This document shows positions 6,575 to 31,883 of a stretch of 33,013 bases of DNA, in pieces. The notes beneath the pieces are model-generated. The model was not told where the DNA came from. It did not search any database and saw only the letters and a program-made list of their open reading frames with translations. Each line of letters starts with the position of its first letter. The first letter of the stretch is position 1. A program made the translations under genes and the position numbers. The stretch spans positions 1-33,013 of the forward strand of contig CAOJYR010000016.1 of NCBI GenBank assembly GCA_948465965.1, given 5' to 3'. Source of the DNA: an uncultured Mycoplasmatota bacterium. GTDB taxonomy: Bacteria > Bacillota_I > Bacilli_A > RF39 > UBA660.

Positions 6575-6994
6575 CTAGTTATCTATAAAATGAATTTTTA
6601 TTTCTAAATTACCATTTCCATCTATATATTCTAATTCGTAGTCATATTTTTTATTATAGCAATCAATATCTACATCATAAATTTCTTTTAAATTAGCTGT
6701 TTTTCCTTTAAAACTTGTCCATTCTTCAAGGGATGGTAGTTCAATTTCAATATATTCTACACTAAAACCACTATTCGTAAAATTAATTGAATTTAATTTT
6801 TGCAAGGTATTTTCGTCATCTATTACTCCCAGTGCATAATCAAAATATAAATAGTCATCTGTCCAATTCATACCAAGGCCAATTATATTTTCTTTACTCG
6901 TATATGGAGAAATATAATCCCAAAATGCCCCTATAAATTGTTCCTGTTCCCAGTCAATACATCTTACTCTTATCTTATATCCCTTATATTTCAT
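6575..6994 (-). CDS. Stand-alone GyrI-like effector-binding domain protein (tentative)
   Basis: This 139-residue protein has the order seen in GyrI-like (AraC effector-binding, SOUL-related) domains. A mid-region GLGMNWTDDYLYFDYALGV resembles the strand before the ligand pocket, a PSLEEWTSFKGKTANLKEIY stretch resembles the strand-helix that often reads W..F.G, and an acidic C-terminal strand follows. Such free-standing domains bind small cationic or aromatic compounds. I start it at ATG 6994; the longer TTG frame (7027) has no ribosome binding site. The ATG overlaps the end of the upstream amidotransferase gene by 11 bases, so coupled translation is likely. The family assignment is by eye only. 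Confidence 0.6.
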   Translation of the reverse strand: MKYKGYKIRVRCIDWEQEQFIGAFWDYISPYTSKENIIGLGMNWTDDYLYFDYALGVIDDENTLQKLNSINFTNSGFSVEYIEIELPSLEEWTSFKGKTANLKEIYDVDIDCYNKKYDYELEYIDGNGNLEIKIHFIDN

Positions 6995-7679
6995 AACTTT
7001 TACCACATTCCTTGACAAATTCTTCAAAAATAGGATTCATATCATCCATTAACTCTGGATGCCATTTTATACCCATTACAAATCTCTTATTTTCCAATTC
7101 CACTGCTTCTACAGTATTGTCAACAGGACATCTCGCAACTATTTTATACTCTTTTATTTCTTCTTCTGTAGTAACATAGGTATGGATACTATTAACCATT
7201 ACCTGGTTTGTTTTCAATATTTTGAATAATTTAGACTTATTTTCGACGCTAACTTTATGAGCAAGTTTTGATCCAAATTGGTTATGAAACATATTATTAT
7301 CTATATGAATTCTACCACCAAGTGCTCTTATTAAATTATTAAATCCTGAACATATACCAAGAATTGGAATATCTTTTTCTATACAAATTTTTGCGATTTC
7401 TTCTTCATACTTATTACTTACTAATCCTCCTTGTAATACTACACCATCTAATTTATTAATAATAGTTTCCAAATCTTCCTTTTCTGCTTTAGATAAATTA
7501 TAGTTGTCCGCCTCATCATCAAGTTTAAAATTTATCTTCTGGTCTGTAGGTAGTATGGCAATAACTAGGGCATTATTTTTTATAAGAATATGTCTGATGT
7601 CATCTACTATCTCTATATAGTGCCACATATCTGTTTCTATTGATGGTTTACCAACCACTCCAATTATGGGTTTATTCAC
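6984..7679 (-). CDS. Class I glutamine amidotransferase-like (peptidase C26, PuuD-like)
   Basis: The 231-residue protein has the class I glutamine amidotransferase triad: the nucleophile Cys110 in PILGICSGFNN, and His/Glu near 207/209 in GIKWHPEL. The N-terminal PIIGVVGKPSIE and the LDGVVLQGG stretch are typical of gamma-glutamyl-GABA hydrolase (PuuD-like) members, which cleave gamma-glutamyl amides. The substrate cannot be told. The start is GTG 7679, with AAGGAG 9 bases upstream. It overlaps the downstream GyrI-like gene by 11 bases, so the two are probably expressed together from the extended -10 promoter at 7701-7709. Confidence 0.88.
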   Translation of the reverse strand: MNKPIIGVVGKPSIETDMWHYIEIVDDIRHILIKNNALVIAILPTDQKINFKLDDEADNYNLSKAEKEDLETIINKLDGVVLQGGLVSNKYEEEIAKICIEKDIPILGICSGFNNLIRALGGRIHIDNNMFHNQFGSKLAHKVSVENKSKLFKILKTNQVMVNSIHTYVTTEEEIKEYKIVARCPVDNTVEAVELENKRFVMGIKWHPELMDDMNPIFEEFVKECGKSYEI

Positions 7680-10590: not shown

Positions 10591-11421
10591 TTAAATATCA
10601 CCTATAAGTTTATTTTTATCATCTTTTTCTAGCTCTTTTAATGACTTTTTAGGCGTTGGTAAATCTTCTGGCATTGTTCCACCAAGTCTTTTAATAGTAT
10701 TCCTAACTTCTTGTCCTACTTCATAATGAGTTTCTTTAGCTTTTCTTTCACCTTGTATATTATCTCTTTTTAATTTTTGTTCGGTTTGAGAAATTCTAAA
10801 TAGATTTGCAATTAATTCATCACTACCCATATTGTCCAAAATATCTTCTCTATATCTTAATTCTTTTCTTTTAGCAATATCATCTGCCGTTTCACCATTA
10901 TATAATCCTTTATACCCAGCATTATGAAACTCTCCAAAATTTTTAACACCCGCTTTTCTAGCTGCTTGATTTAAAGAATAATTTCCTTTTTTAGTCAAAC
11001 TTCTTTGATAAAATCTTTTTTCATCCTCAGTTAACAAGGAATATTCCTTTTCGGTTAATTCTTGGCGTCTTGTCTGAATTGCAAAATAAGTTTGGCCTAA
11101 AGCAACAACTTCTTTTCTAGGATCTGAGTTTTGCACTATTAAATAGCAAGCATATCTTGACAACTTATAATCTTCTATATTTCTTGAAGTTTTTGAACCT
11201 ATATTGACCATTTTGCCGGCGTCGGTAAAATGATCATAAACCATTTTGTTACTTAATTCACAGGCTGATTTTGCTTTCTCTATTACACTAGCAAAATTAC
11301 TCCATTTTGAATATTCAAGTGTACTCATTAATTCACGGGCGAGCCAATATTCATTACCATATCCATCAATATGCTTAATACTTTCAAATATTGTTTCATT
11401 ATATTCTTTAATTTCGTTCAT
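10591..11421 (-). CDS. dinD: DinD-like DNA damage-inducible protein
   Basis: The 276-residue protein matches the DinD/BRO-related layout. An N-terminal BRO-like domain has GNEYWLARELMSTLEYSKWSNF (about residues 18-39), then KMVNIGSKTSRNIEDYKLSRYACYLIVQNSDP (about 83-114). The C-terminal half is helical and charged, ending KELEKDDKNKLIGDI. E. coli DinD is SOS-induced and inhibits RecA strand exchange; many homologs sit on mobile elements. I chose ATG 11421 with GGGGGA about 9 bases before it. It is next to uvrB but in its own unit with an extended -10 promoter; no LexA-type operator was recognised. Confidence 0.85.
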   Translation of the reverse strand: MNEIKEYNETIFESIKHIDGYGNEYWLARELMSTLEYSKWSNFASVIEKAKSACELSNKMVYDHFTDAGKMVNIGSKTSRNIEDYKLSRYACYLIVQNSDPRKEVVALGQTYFAIQTRRQELTEKEYSLLTEDEKRFYQRSLTKKGNYSLNQAARKAGVKNFGEFHNAGYKGLYNGETADDIAKRKELRYREDILDNMGSDELIANLFRISQTEQKLKRDNIQGERKAKETHYEVGQEVRNTIKRLGGTMPEDLPTPKKSLKELEKDDKNKLIGDI

Positions 11422-11446
11422 TTTATTAATTCCCCCTTCTAACAAG

Positions 11447-11455
11447 ATTATAACA
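11447..11455 (-). promoter_or_regulatory. Extended -10 promoter for dinD-like gene
   Basis: The minus strand reads TGTTATAAT, 26 bases before the ATG at 11421, downstream of a terminator. No good -35 and no GAAC-N4-GTTC type SOS operator is visible around it. Confidence 0.65.
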
Positions 11456-11651
11456 TAACTTTTACCATTTTTTTAAAGCTTATATAATCTATTATTAGAA
11501 GAACTTTAGAGAAAAGTTTTAATTTTTCTTAGGATTATGATTGATTTTTATTTAGCTTATATTTTCATTTTAATTTTCCTACTGGAAATTTAATGTTGGT
11601 TATATTAATATTCTTAAAAACAAACAAGTTAATGAGTTTATAAGTATTATG

Positions 11652-11688
11652 AAAAAGAAAAATACTAATATATGATTACTATTAGTAT
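11652..11688 (-). terminator. Terminator after the 11716-12546 gene
   Basis: On the minus strand an 8-bp stem (arms 11662-11669 and 11681-11688, 11-base loop) precedes TTTTTC and more Ts. It lies 28 bases after the stop of the orphan gene. The rest of the 294-base gap 11422-11715 holds the dinD promoter and AT-rich sequence with no other signal I can support. Confidence 0.75.
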
Positions 11689-11715
11689 GCTTTAATTATG
11701 AATATAGTATTGAAG

Positions 11716-12546
11716 TTATTGTTTCGATTTTTTATACACACGCTCTTCCTTACTTTTACTGTCTAAAACAGGAAAGATATGGAAGGGACTTTTTTTATCA
11801 TCTGTATATATGAACGCTGTATCTTTATACCAGAAGCATTCATAATTAATTCTAGTTTTTTGTCTAGAAATTAATCTATATACTTGTCTGTTTGCCCTAG
11901 TAGCTACAACAATATCCCAATTATCCATACACATTTCATTACAACATAAACAATATTTTTCTAAATCTCTACAAAATGAATTCTCATAAATCCCTTGTGG
12001 TAATAGATCCCAAAATTCTAAACCTAAATCATTAAGTGCAAAAATACTTAGTAATTCTTCTTCATGCAGCAACCTAGCTTTTTCATCAAATTTTTTTATA
12101 TACCTTTCAATCTCTTCTTTTTTTCTCCATCCATCAGGAAGATCATTATAGCGTGGAATCCAAAATGGTTCTGGTATCTCATTTTTAGTTACTTTATTTT
12201 TTCCTAATGTTGGATATTCAAAGTCCTGTTCTGATAAAAGGGACGTATCGATGTATGCAATTTCAGTACCTTGATCATTCGTTGCATACCATAATCCATA
12301 ATCAGCAAGGCGTAAATTTTTATACCCTTTTGGAATATACTTCGGTTTTTCTAGTTTGTATGGGGTTATAACATAGTTTGGTCTATTATCTCCCCATTCG
12401 TAGTTTATTCCGCTTATTTGAAAGTTCTTTGGAATGGGTAATTTATATATAGGTTCATTATTTCCTTTATTTTTTAACACAATTGTGTTATCTACTAATT
12501 CACTATATATTAAATCTGAATTATAATTAAAGTTAATTGCTGACAT
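11716..12546 (-). CDS. Orphan protein with a cysteine cluster
   Basis: I do not recognise this 276-residue protein. It is soluble-looking, with no signal peptide or membrane segment. It is tyrosine- and proline-rich in the first 120 residues (NYVITPYKLEKPKYIPKGYK near 56-75), has a helical charged middle (about residues 135-170), then five cysteines in CRDLEKYCLCCNEMC (about 192-206), suggesting a metal site, and a C-terminal beta-rich part. The gene starts 54 bases past the stop of the methyltransferase-fold gene and may be its operon partner. The ATG at 12546 has AAGGAG 8 bases upstream. No function is assigned. Confidence 0.72.
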   Translation of the reverse strand: MSAINFNYNSDLIYSELVDNTIVLKNKGNNEPIYKLPIPKNFQISGINYEWGDNRPNYVITPYKLEKPKYIPKGYKNLRLADYGLWYATNDQGTEIAYIDTSLLSEQDFEYPTLGKNKVTKNEIPEPFWIPRYNDLPDGWRKKEEIERYIKKFDEKARLLHEEELLSIFALNDLGLEFWDLLPQGIYENSFCRDLEKYCLCCNEMCMDNWDIVVATRANRQVYRLISRQKTRINYECFWYKDTAFIYTDDKKSPFHIFPVLDSKSKEERVYKKSKQ

Positions 12547-12600
12547 ACGATTTTCTCCTTTGTGATTATTTAAATATTCTTAGGGATACTATTAATAAAT

Positions 12601-13692
12601 TTATAATCTTGGCATTCTAAATGGAGCATCAAGTGTTTTCATCTTTGCCATACTTTTTGCTGTTATAAAATCTATTTGCTCTTTCATTTCTTTCGTTTTT
12701 TCCTTATTATTTAAATACCAATTTAACATGACTTCTCTGAAATTATCTAGTTTAATCATATCTCTTATATCCTCAATGTTATGTATTTTTCTTCCTTTAA
12801 GAATATCATCTGCTATCATCCTATTATAAATCATATCAAGATTATATCCTGTTATACTTGCTAAAAGACTAGATTGTATTGCTTCTTTTAATTCAGGCTC
12901 TAGCCAATAGGAAAAATCTACATTATCATACTTACTCTCAATTTCTAAACATTCTAAGTAGAGAGGTAGCATGTCTGGAGTATCTCTCCAAATATCAACA
13001 TTTATATAATCATATTCAGATAAATCTTCATTTTTAAGGTAGGCAATCGCATTTCCTTTAATGATATTTACTTTATCTTTGTGTTCAAATTGAGGTAGGA
13101 TTTCTTCAGTAAATAATGCTATAACATCTTCATTTAATTCTACAATATCAATGGAGGTAATACTATCTTTTAAGGATAACATATATGCAGCATATCCCAT
13201 TCCTAATCCACACAACAATACATTTCCAGATGCTTCGTTAATAAATGGAGCAAAGCTTTTTATTTCAAAAGGCTCTACAGTCATCCAACTTACTGCAGTA
13301 TCCCCTTCTACAATTCCCGGGAATCTTAAATTATCTTCACAATAGAAAAATGTATTTGTTTGTTCAAATGTATCTATATCTCTACTTTTTTCTAGGTATT
13401 TCGTTACTAATTCTCTTTTTATTATTCTTCTTTTATTTAGGGAAAAGTTATTTTTTTGTGCTCTTGGTATAGAGATATTTTGAAGATAAGCATTATTCAT
13501 GACTTCTTGTTTTTCTATTTTGACTAATTTTAGGTTATTATCCTTTATAGCATTTTTGAATTTATAAAAGTCACTAACGGTAATCATTCCACTATCAACC
13601 ATACCATCAAATTTTAATATAAGTGACTCTTTCATTAATTGATCTATTATTGCTTCTTTTACTTTATTTAAATTACTTTTATTTTTTGCCAT
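12601..13692 (-). CDS. Methyltransferase-fold (spermidine synthase-like) protein
   Basis: The 363-residue protein contains a class I SAM-dependent methyltransferase Rossmann core: motif I VLLCGLGMGYAAYML (near residue 160), an acidic strand end SIDIVELNED (motif II) that would hold the ribose hydroxyls, and DYINVDIW at the strand-4 position. This arrangement resembles spermidine synthase-like folds. The N-terminal 150 residues and C-terminal 80 residues are not recognised. The substrate is unknown and activity is unproven. The ATG has AAGGGGTG 7 bases before it and a good promoter 28 bases upstream (13720-13748). The metallophosphoesterase remnant lies directly upstream. Confidence 0.78.
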   Translation of the reverse strand: MAKNKSNLNKVKEAIIDQLMKESLILKFDGMVDSGMITVSDFYKFKNAIKDNNLKLVKIEKQEVMNNAYLQNISIPRAQKNNFSLNKRRIIKRELVTKYLEKSRDIDTFEQTNTFFYCEDNLRFPGIVEGDTAVSWMTVEPFEIKSFAPFINEASGNVLLCGLGMGYAAYMLSLKDSITSIDIVELNEDVIALFTEEILPQFEHKDKVNIIKGNAIAYLKNEDLSEYDYINVDIWRDTPDMLPLYLECLEIESKYDNVDFSYWLEPELKEAIQSSLLASITGYNLDMIYNRMIADDILKGRKIHNIEDIRDMIKLDNFREVMLNWYLNNKEKTKEMKEQIDFITAKSMAKMKTLDAPFRMPRL

Positions 13693-13927: not shown

Positions 13928-14350
13928 TTAAAATTTTATTCTTTTATCATTGCCTATACTAATATCTAAATAGTCACCTTGTATATCTATATCATTTCTT
14001 ATTTTTAAATCGGGAATATGATTAGTCATTCTATAAAATAAATTAATTAGGTTTTCTGTTTTTAGTTTACTAATTACATCTTGTTTATCAACAATATGAT
14101 TATACCATTTTAGGCTATGTTTATATTCCTTTAATCTATATTTTTTTCTAGATTCACTTAAATATTTTAAGTCCTCCAGCGCGTCACTATTCCATTTTTT
14201 AGGAAAGTTTTCTTTTTCTCTTTCACTCAATAATTCATGATAGCGATAGGATAGAACCTGTAGTATTGGAACTTTTATTTTTGTAATGTTGTGCTCTTTT
14301 AAGAGATTTATGAATAAAAGCATTGAATATACTTGATTGGGATGTACATT
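13928..14350 (-). pseudogene. C-terminal part of a frameshifted orphan gene
   Basis: This frame starts as an isolated ATG at 14323 (131 residues), but that ATG has no ribosome binding site. Upstream of it, the same frame continues back through VHPNQVYS to about 14350, joining smoothly to the preceding gene's reading frame. The product is a charged, tyrosine-rich protein (PILQVLSYRYHELLSEREKE, then KHSLKWYNHIVDK) with no recognised domain. The best reading is one ancestral gene of about 400 residues split by loss of one base near 14350. Whether this is a true mutation or a sequencing artefact is open. Confidence 0.75.
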
Positions 14351-15087
14351 GGATTATCTATTCCTTTATTTAGTTGGTATAGCATTCTTTCTACTTTATT
14401 TATTTTTGTTGAATTACAATCATTTTGAATTCCATATATGTAACAGGTATTATCATCTGCTATATCATAATGAATATGTGGTAGAGAGTGAATATTTCCC
14501 TCTTTATCCTTGATTTTAAAACTCATGTTTCTACTAGTTTCATCCCAGGTTGTATTTAAATTACTTTTTATATAAACATCGTAGTCATAAAGATTAGTAT
14601 ACTTTTGTTCAAACTTATAGCTATCAAACTTATCATTCTTAATAAATTGCAGTTGTCTATTTAAAAATTTCTCTACATTGTTAAAATCTGTTACACCCAT
14701 ACGAAGCCATATCCTACGCATAACTAGGATTGCAAGAGCTCGTGCGCTATAATGATCTCCATATACATTATATAGGCGTACTAAATTATTCGTAATATCT
14801 GTTAAATAATTAAAAAAGTCATACTCATCCTTTACTATGATTGTCGGAACAGACTCATCTGCATTATTTTCCGGTCTTAATCTTTCTATATCTTCCTCGT
14901 GAATATTTGGTGTCCAGCCATCTTTTATGGTAAATGGGTGTTTCATTACAGTTTCGAACAAATCAAATGCTTCATTTGGAAAGATAATATTGAAATTTGG
15001 CGTTTCTGTTTCTTTTTTTATTTCAAAACTTGTATGGTTTACAAACAGCTCAACAATTTCTTTAAATGTTACTTTATTATCGTTCAA
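14308..15087 (-). pseudogene. N-terminal part of a frameshifted orphan gene
   Basis: This 259-residue frame starts at a TTG (15087) with AAGGA about 10 bases upstream. I recognise no domain. It contains a helical stretch YFDYLTDITNN-like (NYLTDITNNLVRLYNVYGDH, about residues 93-112), VMRRIWLRMG, and a beta-rich end with SLPHIHYDIADDNTCYIYGI. The tail after YQLNKGIDN (PMYIPIKYIQCFYS) reads out of frame; in the alternative frame the sequence continues as VHPNQVYSMLLFINLL into the next frame. The ancestral protein probably acted as one chain of about 400 residues. A partial product may still be made. Confidence 0.7.
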
Positions 15088-19009: not shown

Positions 19010-20119
19010 TTATTTTACTTTTACTTTATTTTTATCTAATCTTTTTGTAAGTTCATTTTTTAAGGTCATTGCGACTTCCAAAACTTCTTCTTGTATTAAT
19101 TTGCTAATCATATCTAAATCAATGTCCTTTTTAGGCGTGTTTTTTTCAGATTGCTCTTTGGCTTTTATTGGATTGTTTTCTTTGTAAAGGGCAATTCCTG
19201 CTTCAAAATCATTACTATTAAATGGTTTTATAAAATTATTATCTTTTAGGTTTATTGGATTTTTCTTCAAGTCATTAATAAATAGTTCTAATCTTTCTAA
19301 GAAGTCTAGTGTTACATTTTCATATCTTTTTACAATAATATTTAAATTTTCTCGAAGAGGATAAAATTTAGAAGTTAGCCCTGATTCTTCAACCATATGG
19401 ATAAGCAATTTATCTATCTCATCTAACACTTCAGTATCTGTCAATCTAATGATAAATTCATTAAATGTTTTTTTGTGTTCCTCTAAATCATCTAAAAACA
19501 TAAACATAGTGGAAAACTCATGATCAATAGGTGGGGCTAGGCTAGTTAGTTCTTTATCCTTTGAAATAAAATTGACATTTTCATAATGGAAGTTTTGATC
19601 TGCTCTTAAAACAGAAAATAGTATCTGTTTTGCCAGATTCTCTCCTAGATTTCTATTTTCTTTTATTAATTTTGAGTCAAATATATTTGTATAATCATAT
19701 ATCTTCATACAATAGTTTTTATATTCATTTATATCTACTTCTGAGTCAGGATTGTCTCTAAAGTGTTCAAACAAATTAACTAGTTTTTCATCCTTGTTTA
19801 TAATTGAGGGAACTATAGTTCCTTCATTATGATACTTTGGTACATATTCATCATAATGACTACATATGGCTAATCTATATACTGGGGCTTTTTTATCAAA
19901 ATACTCTTGAATGATATTTGACCAAAATAGCTCACTATAGGCAAAGAATGGTGTTGAATAAGGTTTTGTTTTAGAAAGTGGTTTAAATATTTCTTCTTTA
20001 CCATCTTTTAAAAATACAGGAAAGAATTTTTGACTTTTAATTTTTCCTTGTGCTTCTACTTCTAAGTTTCTATTTCTTTTATTATAGTTATAGTATTCTA
20101 CTTTATAGTTAAAGTTCAT
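19010..20119 (-). CDS. HipA-like kinase-fold protein
   Basis: The 369-residue protein has the HipA/CtkA-like kinase pattern: an ATP-binding lysine in EEIFKP (Lys46), a glutamate in FAYSELFW (Glu63) that could pair with it, a catalytic-loop-like LRADQNFHYENVNFI (Asp174, Asn181 or Asn183) and a metal-binding APPIDHE (Asp199). The C-terminal 120 residues are helical and charged and unrecognised. HipA phosphorylates tRNA synthetases in toxin-antitoxin systems; here no HipB-like antitoxin is adjacent, so a toxin role is not shown. I start it at ATG 20119, 10-11 bases after AAGGA; an upstream GTG is too close to that site. It is divergent from the other kinase-like gene. Confidence 0.72.
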   Translation of the reverse strand: MNFNYKVEYYNYNKRNRNLEVEAQGKIKSQKFFPVFLKDGKEEIFKPLSKTKPYSTPFFAYSELFWSNIIQEYFDKKAPVYRLAICSHYDEYVPKYHNEGTIVPSIINKDEKLVNLFEHFRDNPDSEVDINEYKNYCMKIYDYTNIFDSKLIKENRNLGENLAKQILFSVLRADQNFHYENVNFISKDKELTSLAPPIDHEFSTMFMFLDDLEEHKKTFNEFIIRLTDTEVLDEIDKLLIHMVEESGLTSKFYPLRENLNIIVKRYENVTLDFLERLELFINDLKKNPINLKDNNFIKPFNSNDFEAGIALYKENNPIKAKEQSEKNTPKKDIDLDMISKLIQEEVLEVAMTLKNELTKRLDKNKVKVK

Positions 20120-20175
20120 CGTTATCACTTTCCTTATATATAAATTTATTATGGTAAGAGCTGTTTTTGTTATTT

Positions 20176-20276: not shown

Positions 20277-21017
20277 GTGAAAAGAGAATTTATTAAAAAT
20301 ATTATTATTAATGATGAACTATTTGAGTTAAAAGGTGATCCTATTGGTAGAGGTGAGTTATCTGGTGTTACATATAGATTAAGGAGGGATAATTTAGATT
20401 TAGCAGTTAAATTATATTATCACGAACATCCTTTTGGAGATGATGACAGTTGGTATCCTGATATTCACACTTTGGAATATTTTACTGAAATATCTCATGA
20501 TGTTTATCCTATTCTTTTGAGCCATTATAAAGTAGAAGATGAAAATCATAATTATGTGGGATGTGCCTCTCCTTTTATAGAAGAGACTAGAGGTCCTACG
20601 GGGGATGCTATATGGAATCTGCCAAGGGACTCATTCTTTACTTATTTTTATAAAATATTTGGACAAATTCCTAAGTTAAGTAAGGCAGGAGTAGTTTTAG
20701 ATGATTGGAATATAAACAATATACGTTTAGGAAACCCAGTTAGTTATGAGGAGGGTATATACTGTTTTGATGATAGTAATTATTTTCTTTCTGATGATGT
20801 TAGTAGTAATAATTTAATTGATAATGAATTAATCGAAAATATTTTGTGTGATTATATTGAAGATAAATATTCTTACGATCTGCAGTCTAAGGTTTTGGAG
20901 GGGTTAAAAAGTAAAAGGAATTATATAGACTTTTTGGAAAAAAATAGTTTAGGCTATGCAACTATTGGTGAATTCTTAAATGATTATACTTCATGTTTAA
21001 AGAAAAAATATTATTAA
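20277..21017 (+). CDS. Protein-kinase-like fold protein
   Basis: The 246-residue protein has the outline of a eukaryotic-like (Hanks-type or related) kinase: a glycine-rich loop IGRGELSGVTY (Gly24, 26, 30), the ATP lysine in LAVKLYYHE (Lys45), a catalytic loop VLDDWNINNIRL (Asp142 or 143, Asn147 or 148) and YCFDDSNYF in the place of the DFG motif. The GVV.DD motif replaces the usual HRD. It has no membrane segment or sensor domain and is short for a Ser/Thr kinase, so it may be an aminoglycoside-phosphotransferase-like or atypical kinase. The start is GTG 20277. It is divergent from the HipA-like gene and ends in a bidirectional terminator. Confidence 0.72.
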   Translation: MKREFIKNIIINDELFELKGDPIGRGELSGVTYRLRRDNLDLAVKLYYHEHPFGDDDSWYPDIHTLEYFTEISHDVYPILLSHYKVEDENHNYVGCASPFIEETRGPTGDAIWNLPRDSFFTYFYKIFGQIPKLSKAGVVLDDWNINNIRLGNPVSYEEGIYCFDDSNYFLSDDVSSNNLIDNELIENILCDYIEDKYSYDLQSKVLEGLKSKRNYIDFLEKNSLGYATIGEFLNDYTSCLKKKYY

Positions 21018-29904: not shown

Positions 29905-30786
29905 TTACTCACCTCCAAAGACTTCATAGGCATCTGTTACAACGAAGAAAGCGGTGGGATCAATTTCGTGAATGCCTTCTTTTAGGCGATAATAATCCTT
30001 AGTTGGTAATACACACATTAAAACAGTTTGTCTTTCTCTGGCATATCCACCTTTGGCATTAAATACTGTTACACCATGATTTAAATATCTTAAAATATAT
30101 TCTTTTATCTTCACTTCTTCATCTGTGATAATATAGAAGGCTTTACTATCTGATATACCTAGTATTACTCTATCTGACATTAAACTTATCATATATAAAA
30201 TAATTATCGAATACATCAATCTAGTTGGACCAAATATAAAAGCAGAAGATAATACAATCAATCCATCACTTAATAGAATACTTTTTCCAATGCTCATTTT
30301 TAAATATTTTGAGATTATTTGATTCACTATATCTGTTCCACCAGTTGTGAATCCTGCTTTAAAAATCATACCAGATCCGAAGCCAGACATTACGCCCCCG
30401 AAAACTGCTGATAAAAGCAATTGATTTGTCTCAATATTAATAATTGTATTAATATTAGCCGTTAGCTTAACAAAGACTGGAAATAGTATAGATCCTAATA
30501 TTGAGGCCTTGGTTTTTTCTTTGCCTAACATGATGAAGCTAAGTATCATTAGAAGTACATTACCAATTAAAATAATTGTTGAATTTTCTATTTTGAGCAA
30601 GTGATTCAAAATAATGGCAATACCACTCACTCCTCCTGAGACTAAATCATTGGGAGCTAAAAAGAGATTATAAGATATGGCTACAATTAGACAACCAATA
30701 CAGAATTGAATATGTCTTTTAACATTTGACTTAGAATTTACTTTTTTTAATATTTCTAAGTTTTTATTTTTAGAAAATAATCTCAT
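29905..30786 (-). CDS. YitT family membrane protein, first copy
   Basis: The 293-residue protein matches its downstream neighbour along its whole length: LFLAPNDLVSGGVSGIAII, the family loop GFTTGGTDIVNQI, six membrane segments, and a C-terminal domain with SKAFYIITDEE, HGVTVFNAKGGYA and TAFFVVTDAYEV. The function is unknown. Its ATG lies one base past the prfB stop (TAAT ATG), with AAGGAG in the end of prfB, so it is coupled to prfB and to the next copy. Confidence 0.93.
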   Translation of the reverse strand: MRLFSKNKNLEILKKVNSKSNVKRHIQFCIGCLIVAISYNLFLAPNDLVSGGVSGIAIILNHLLKIENSTIILIGNVLLMILSFIMLGKEKTKASILGSILFPVFVKLTANINTIINIETNQLLLSAVFGGVMSGFGSGMIFKAGFTTGGTDIVNQIISKYLKMSIGKSILLSDGLIVLSSAFIFGPTRLMYSIIILYMISLMSDRVILGISDSKAFYIITDEEVKIKEYILRYLNHGVTVFNAKGGYARERQTVLMCVLPTKDYYRLKEGIHEIDPTAFFVVTDAYEVFGGE

Positions 30787-30787
30787 A

Positions 30788-31883
30788 TTATATCTCCTTT
30801 TTTAAATTTTCTTCTATAAATAGGTCTATATCCCCATCAAGAACTTTTGTAACATTACTAGTTTCTACATTTGTTCTATGATCCTTAACCATTGAATAAG
30901 GATGCATTACATAACTCCTTATTTGGGATCCAAACTCAATATTCATTTGACTACCTTTTATTTTATTTAATTCTTTTTCTTGTTCTTCTATTTTTAATAA
31001 AAGAAGCTTGTTTTTTAGTACCTTTAGGGCTTGTTCCTTATTTTGAATTTGGCTTCTTTCATTTTGGCATGTAACAACTATTTTTGTTGGTAAATGTGTT
31101 ATTCTTACTGCTGAATCTGTAGTATTTACTCCTTGACCTCCAGCACCTGTTGATCTATATACATCTATCTTTAAATCCTTCTCATCTAATTCTATTTCAT
31201 TATTTTGCTCTATTTCAGGTGTTATATCGATAGAGGCAAATGAAGTATGGCGTCGATTATTTGAATCAAATGGTGAAAGTCGAACTAACCGATGAACACC
31301 TTTTTCATTTTTTAAATATCCATAAGCATTATGTCCCTTAACTAAGATGGTTGCCCCTTTAATACCAGCCTCTTCACCATCTTGATAGTCTAATACTTCT
31401 ATTTTGTATCCCTTTTTCTCACACCACCTAGTATACATTCTATATAGCATTAAAGCCCAATCACATGCCTCTGTTCCACCTGCTCCAGAATGCACTTCTA
31501 AAATACAATTATTTTTATCATATGGCCCATTTAAATAAATATTTAGTGATAGTTGCTCTAACTGTGTGGTTATAGTTATTAATTCATCTTCTATCATTTC
31601 TGTTAAGTCCATATCTTCTGCTGTTATAGTTAATAATACTTCAATATTAGATGCAATTCTTTTATCTAAATCTAATATTTCAGAGGTTAATTTTTTTAAC
31701 TCGTTCATTTCAGAAATTACTATTTCGCTATTTTTTTTGTCATCCCAAAAGTTAGGTTTATTTAATTCCTTTTCTAATTCTTTAATTCTTTCTAGCTTAT
31801 TATCAACGTCAAAGTGACCTCCATATATTTTTTATAGTTGTATTTGCTTGTTCTAATTCTTTTTTTAGTTCTCTTTTTTCCAT
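30788..31883 (-). CDS. prfB: Peptide chain release factor 2, programmed +1 frameshift
   Basis: RF2 terminates translation at UGA and UAA. The main frame has the anticodon-like SPF motif (HRLVRLSPFDSNNRRHTSF) and the catalytic GGQ (STGAGGQGVNTTDSAVRI). The gene begins in another frame at ATG 31883, after AAGGAG, and codes 24 residues (MEKRELKKELEQANTTIKNI, then WRSL), then meets CTT TGA. Skipping one T at 31811 continues as DVDNKLERIKELEKELNKP into the main frame, giving about 364 residues, the normal RF2 length. Reading: complement of 31812-31883 joined to 30788-31810. Low RF2 levels favour the frameshift and so control RF2 level. It leads the yitT pair. Confidence 0.97.
31808..31822 (-). promoter_or_regulatory. 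Programmed +1 frameshift site in prfB
   Basis: On the minus strand a GGAGG Shine-Dalgarno-like element (31818-31822) lies three bases before CTT TGA C (31814-31808). The spacing matches the known RF2 recoding element, and slippage on CTT T continues into the RF2 body. The stop is the RF2-specific UGA, so the site is self-regulating. Confidence 0.95.

Follow-up and report, generated by a model that had tools for sequence, protein, structure and literature searches.

Frameshift pseudogenes are the closest described counterparts of the locus analysed here, which comes from a bacterium related to gut Bacilli, and many apparent bacterial pseudogenes are assembly artefacts, as reported in PMC11017572. 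The broken gene, which lies on the minus strand of the window (i.e., the whole stretch of 33,013 nucleotides that was analysed), shares with ordinary bacterial frameshift pseudogenes, and with assembly errors that look like pseudogenes, a single net one-base change in an otherwise intact gene whose relatives are intact (PMC11017572). Compared with ordinary frameshift pseudogenes, nothing about it is unusual except that the libraries searched hold no name for its family, and the finding is an ordinary one. A different described system in which the frame changes inside one gene is prfB (release factor 2), whose programmed frameshift is a +1 site with known signals. This system is represented in the same window: the match of the main prfB frame (30788–31860, minus strand) to TIGR00020 does not begin until position 51 of 353, and CTTTGAC at 31814–31808 stands behind GGAGG at 31822–31818. 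This arrangement resembles the standard programmed +1 frameshift and explains the late start of the match. The broken gene differs from prfB in that no such signals are present at the break and in that the break is not common to its relatives. For the encoded protein, the closest described systems are the fold of the Gcn5-related N-acetyltransferases (GNATs) and the C-terminal domain of isocitrate lyase 2 (ICL2), which is likewise GNAT-like and without sequence homology to known proteins according to PMC6788997.

Both minus-strand frames given in the initial annotation (14308–15087, 259 aa; 13928–14323, 131 aa) were found as described (Table 1). The minus-strand translation of 14308–15087 ends with ...YQLNKGIDNPMYIPIKYIQCFYS, and the second frame, read upstream, gives NVHPNQVYSMLLFINLL. 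In alignments, relatives follow the first part up to about the codon at 14355. The codon listing likewise has the first frame tracking the relatives to about AAT at 14355; the second frame has a TAA at 14356–14354 and is open from 14353, so that the change must lie at about 14356–14349, a span that covers the join previously placed at 14350–14355. The break is thereby located about two thirds along a gene of about 390 codons. Downstream of it, the second frame runs for 141 codons without a stop (probability from base composition about 7e-7), the remaining two frames of the minus strand contain 18 and 23 stops, and the match of the second frame to the relatives begins at the very point at which that of the first part ends. 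The open second frame is more than chance.

Table 1. Coordinates of the broken gene and its features in the window.
Feature	Position	Strand	Details
First part of the broken gene	14308..15087	-	frame of 259 aa with TTG as start and TAA as stop; identity to L088 55% over 244 residues
Second part, in the other frame	13928..14353	-	141 codons up to the stop; identity to L088 56% over 132 residues, contiguous with the first part
Listed ATG frame within the second part	13928..14323	-	131 aa
Stretch where the frame must change	14349..14356	-	net one base missing (modulo 3) relative to intact relatives; from codon listing and alignments
Internal ATG, listed start of the second part	14321..14323	-	inside helix 251–266 of the L088 model; by eye without ribosome binding site
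Predicted GNAT-like domain, interrupted by the break	13957..14625	-	L088 residues 157–378

Intact relatives were identified in several searches. The first part was searched in 98 related genomes and matched six of them (its own and five others), and in those five the match lies in open frames of 390–409 codons. A profile of these five aligns with the first part over its positions 46–231 and with the second part, in the other frame, over 246–351. Divergent members obtained with this profile from genomes of the same bacterial family include a subfamily closer to the broken gene. In the closest relative found (L078/L088), both parts lie back to back in one 395-codon frame: residues 5–248 of the first part align with residues 19–261 of L078 (55% identity) and, in the same frame, residues 2–133 of the second part with residues 262–392 (56% identity), and the parts likewise abut on the frame of L088 (19–261 and 262–392). 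The initial interpretation as one gene split by the loss of one base, whether as a pseudogene or through a sequence error, is supported. None of the 16 aligned members matching both parts (L079, which is truncated by a contig end, and four members weak on the second part were omitted) breaks at the break point of the window.

In a further search, contigs were scanned with the subfamily alignment through one peptide pattern, yielding 19 named loci assigned by their titles to uncultured or metagenome-assembled Bacilli, Bacillales, Tenericutes, Firmicutes, Clostridia, Clostridiales, Erysipelotrichaceae or unnamed bacteria, one of them being Candidatus Coprovivens excrementavium (Bacilli in the NCBI taxonomy). 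All 19 loci carry both parts in a single open frame of 350–420 codons (L105 starts at the locus edge), and an intact homologue of about 400 residues, as sought in the initial annotation, thus exists. In addition, 386 genomes of the same bacterial family were screened with the subfamily profile, and members with an E-value below 1e-40 were regarded as close. All 22 close members besides the window have one frame across the break point (G350 runs into a contig end), and among the matches below this E-value two pieces in two frames occur only in the genome of the window. A single stop is listed for four of the 22 (G185, G303, G133, and G405); examination of the frames identified it as the terminal stop in G185 and G303, and in G133 and G405 it must be near an end since the match is open over its full length. 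The same profile search also returned a second, partial copy (C78) in G266. The 19-locus and 22-genome sets overlap, as L088 and L078 (G303) agree in length and sequence and are the same contig.

It is very improbable that a programmed frameshift links the two frames so that a single functional protein is made. The change (one base re-read) would have the direction of ordinary −1 frameshifting, and the two parts seem to be conserved to the same degree; however, the first-part frame contains no slippery heptamer of the form X XXY YYZ between 14400 and 14308, the frame change at the break point is found in 0/19 named loci and 0/22 close genomes, and at the programmed site of prfB, which is of the other type, the signals are plain in the same window. 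Programmed frameshifting was rejected for lack of a heptamer and of conservation of the break. A still smaller chance was given to a split of the gene into two working proteins, the second of which would start at the ATG at 14323 and be coupled to the stop of the first. Coupling would be possible given the 16-base overlap of the listed frames (14308–14323), but this ATG sits inside the conserved block NVHP...YSMLLF, so that the second protein would miss the first conserved residues, and inspection by eye of the bases before it revealed no purine run resembling a ribosome binding site, in agreement with the initial annotation. Homologues encoded as two separate proteins with the same split, which the initial annotation had named as evidence against a single broken gene, were not seen in any of the close relatives found (19 and 22, in overlapping sets), and that test thus does not refute it. 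The split would furthermore fall in the middle of one predicted domain, which makes two half-proteins with separate functions unlikely; with the break mid-domain and not conserved, a functional split was rejected.

The best reading, with a probability of roughly 0.55, is that an accessory gene of patchy occurrence has recently been inactivated by mutation. This gene of about 390 codons, a single frame in related Bacilli, would have been thrown out of frame when a net one base was lost at about 14349–14356, whereupon translation would go out of frame and stop at 14308. The resulting truncated protein of 259 residues, about 14 of them foreign residues at its end, would be without the last third, i.e., the second half of the predicted GNAT-like domain, and should not fold or work. 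The two parts, the frame change, the intact relatives and the lack of detectable decay downstream are observations; we infer that the change is a real and recent mutation, which is only somewhat more likely than an assembly error, and that the product is non-functional. No member of the window's subfamily was found in the genus's three remaining genomes, of which one is just 64% complete, indicating that its loss is tolerated. The same-genus genome G002 carries a member of the wider family (L038, 8341–9486) without a match to the subfamily profile of the window, which points to a patchy history of the gene.

The age of the break was assessed by comparing the identities of the two parts with those of 16 relatives (L103, L105, and L106 were left out). 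Second-part minus first-part identity averaged +0.022 for the window and +0.013 (sd 0.036) among the relatives, and no decay of the second part was detectable in this comparison, meaning that the break is either recent or not real. The latter, i.e., a sequencing or assembly error in an organism whose gene is intact, is nearly as likely as a recent mutation. An assembly error would leave precisely such a second part without decay, no other lesion was seen in the gene, the genome is a draft of 45 contigs and the only one available for its species, and all close relatives found (19 + 22, in overlapping sets) are intact at the break point. Assembly errors are reported to inflate apparent bacterial pseudogene counts (PMC11017572). 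Against an error, the site is not in a homopolymer, the longest run near it being not over 3, and the conserved genes of the same 33 kb appear sound. When ten window genes were searched against NCBIfam, seven (whiA, yvcK, lgt, uvrA, uvrB, ftsX, and ftsE) matched their models over almost the whole length, the other three being prfB with the offset start given above, 6984–7679 with only partial matches under the cut-offs, and 29905–30786 with none; serS of the same genome is full length as well. The assembly is thus not generally poor here. Breaks in other members of the wider family also count against an error at this site, though these may be errors themselves.

The fold of the encoded protein was predicted with AlphaFold2 on the intact relative L088 (21 rows; pLDDT 89, pTM 0.86). 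From residue 157 on, the predicted fold is GNAT-like. The break corresponds to residues 247–250 of L088, between strand 215–222 and helix 251–266 of the model, which we take to be beta-4 and alpha-3 in GNAT terms. In a VIA structural comparison of the L088 model, the best 50 rows of 996 chains had Z-scores of 9.7 to 6.8, a Z of 8 being reached by only 19 of the 996 chains and values under 8 possibly reflecting a common arrangement. Judging from their titles or from the proteins named, we take these 50 rows to be GNAT or p300/CBP-type acyltransferases or the GNAT-like domain of ICL2. The best rows were the C-terminal domain of Mycobacterium tuberculosis isocitrate lyase 2 / Rv1916 (9obo, Z 9.7, 3.9 Å over 128 residues; 8g8k, Z 9.5, 4.0 Å over 129 residues); in contrast to isocitrate lyase 2, the model of the broken gene's family is missing the lyase domain. 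The predicted C-terminal fold of L088 also resembled human GCN5 (5trm, Z 8.2, 4.0 Å over 108 residues) and RimI (2cnm, Z 8.1, 3.7 Å over 110 residues). Foldseek alone gave no E-value below 0.001 (best 7.9e-3, p300), and a comparison with predicted viral structures produced nothing beyond weak rows, among them several acetyltransferases (best E-value 0.012). No solved structure was found by sequence, and neither the window pieces nor five relatives matched a GNAT profile in Pfam.

GNATs bind the pyrophosphate of acetyl-CoA through the motif [QR]xxGx[GA] between beta-4 and alpha-3. Before helix 251–266, this motif is absent from the family (0/19 members tested), in contrast to GNATs, and the protein was consequently not filed as an acetyltransferase. 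In the L088 model, strand 215–222 and helix 251–266 are separated by about 28 residues that include an additional short helix, a spacing longer than usual for GNATs. The N-terminal 158 residues were modelled with confidence (pLDDT 89) but are not clearly similar to any known fold (best Z 4.0; best Foldseek E-value 3.1), which does not show a new fold.

The wider family, defined by the five-member profile, occurs in 117 of the 386 genomes of the same bacterial family, that of the window included. When the search was extended to the class, 14 of 296 genomes had a match, of which 11 belong to the same family (again including that of the window) and three to another family at E-values of 5e-4 to 8e-4. 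Searches of five relatives against Pfam, NCBIfam, PHROGs, and PADLOC gave scattered weak rows and no family name, the best library row being phrog_38673 at 0.0038 for one of the five, and the two window pieces gave no more than weak scattered rows in Pfam. The term orphan used in the initial annotation therefore needs qualifying: these libraries provide no name for the family, but the wider family is present in the 117 genomes given above.

Breaks in this wider family were verified in at least five of the 117 genomes, a lower count since they were checked in genomes G000, G026, G297, G338, and G370. Four are frameshifts, located in profile coordinates at about 229–244 in the window, 198 in L039, 188 in L040, and 160 in L041, and L036 has a stop between profile positions 297 and 310. 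As a control, serS was searched in the same 117 genomes and matched in 109, with no within-contig break: 102 of the 109 have a near-full-length frame, and seven have only fragments on one or two contigs, which were taken for contig ends. The excess of breaks over serS is not significant and a hint only (5/117 versus 0/109, Fisher p = 0.06; versus 0/102 near-full-length frames, p = 0.06; frameshifts alone, 4/117, p = 0.12–0.13). It is doubtful, and at best a speculative possibility, that these proteins form an undescribed lineage-restricted family in which a degenerate GNAT fold is preceded by a helical N-terminal domain of unrecognised type, with members dispersed over a single family of Bacilli and repeatedly inactivated at different points, as would be expected under changing selection, e.g., phage conflict. 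The mutation itself is of little importance. In an annotation, a single broken gene should be entered in place of two orphan proteins, and the wider family, unnamed in these libraries and present in 117 of 386 genomes of its bacterial family, could receive a family model.

When the surroundings of the window gene and of the 19 named loci were compared, no family of neighbouring genes was common to more than 4 of the 20. In relative L089, uvrB immediately follows the family gene; in the window, three genes separate the broken gene from uvrB downstream. The three genes in between (10591–13692, minus strand) encode a Bro-N domain protein, an orphan, and a protein with a spermine-synthase-like match under the cut-off (Pfam). 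An origin from a mobile element was unsupported, as there was no match in the collections of viral contigs (one peptide pattern), plasmids, and phages that were searched. A scan for promoters and terminators between 13600 and 15900 gave no more than shuffled sequence. Elsewhere in the window, a divergent gene pair (19010–20128 on the minus strand and 20277–21017 on the plus strand) had no Pfam match over the cut-off; inspected by eye, its plus-strand member resembles a small protein-kinase-like protein.
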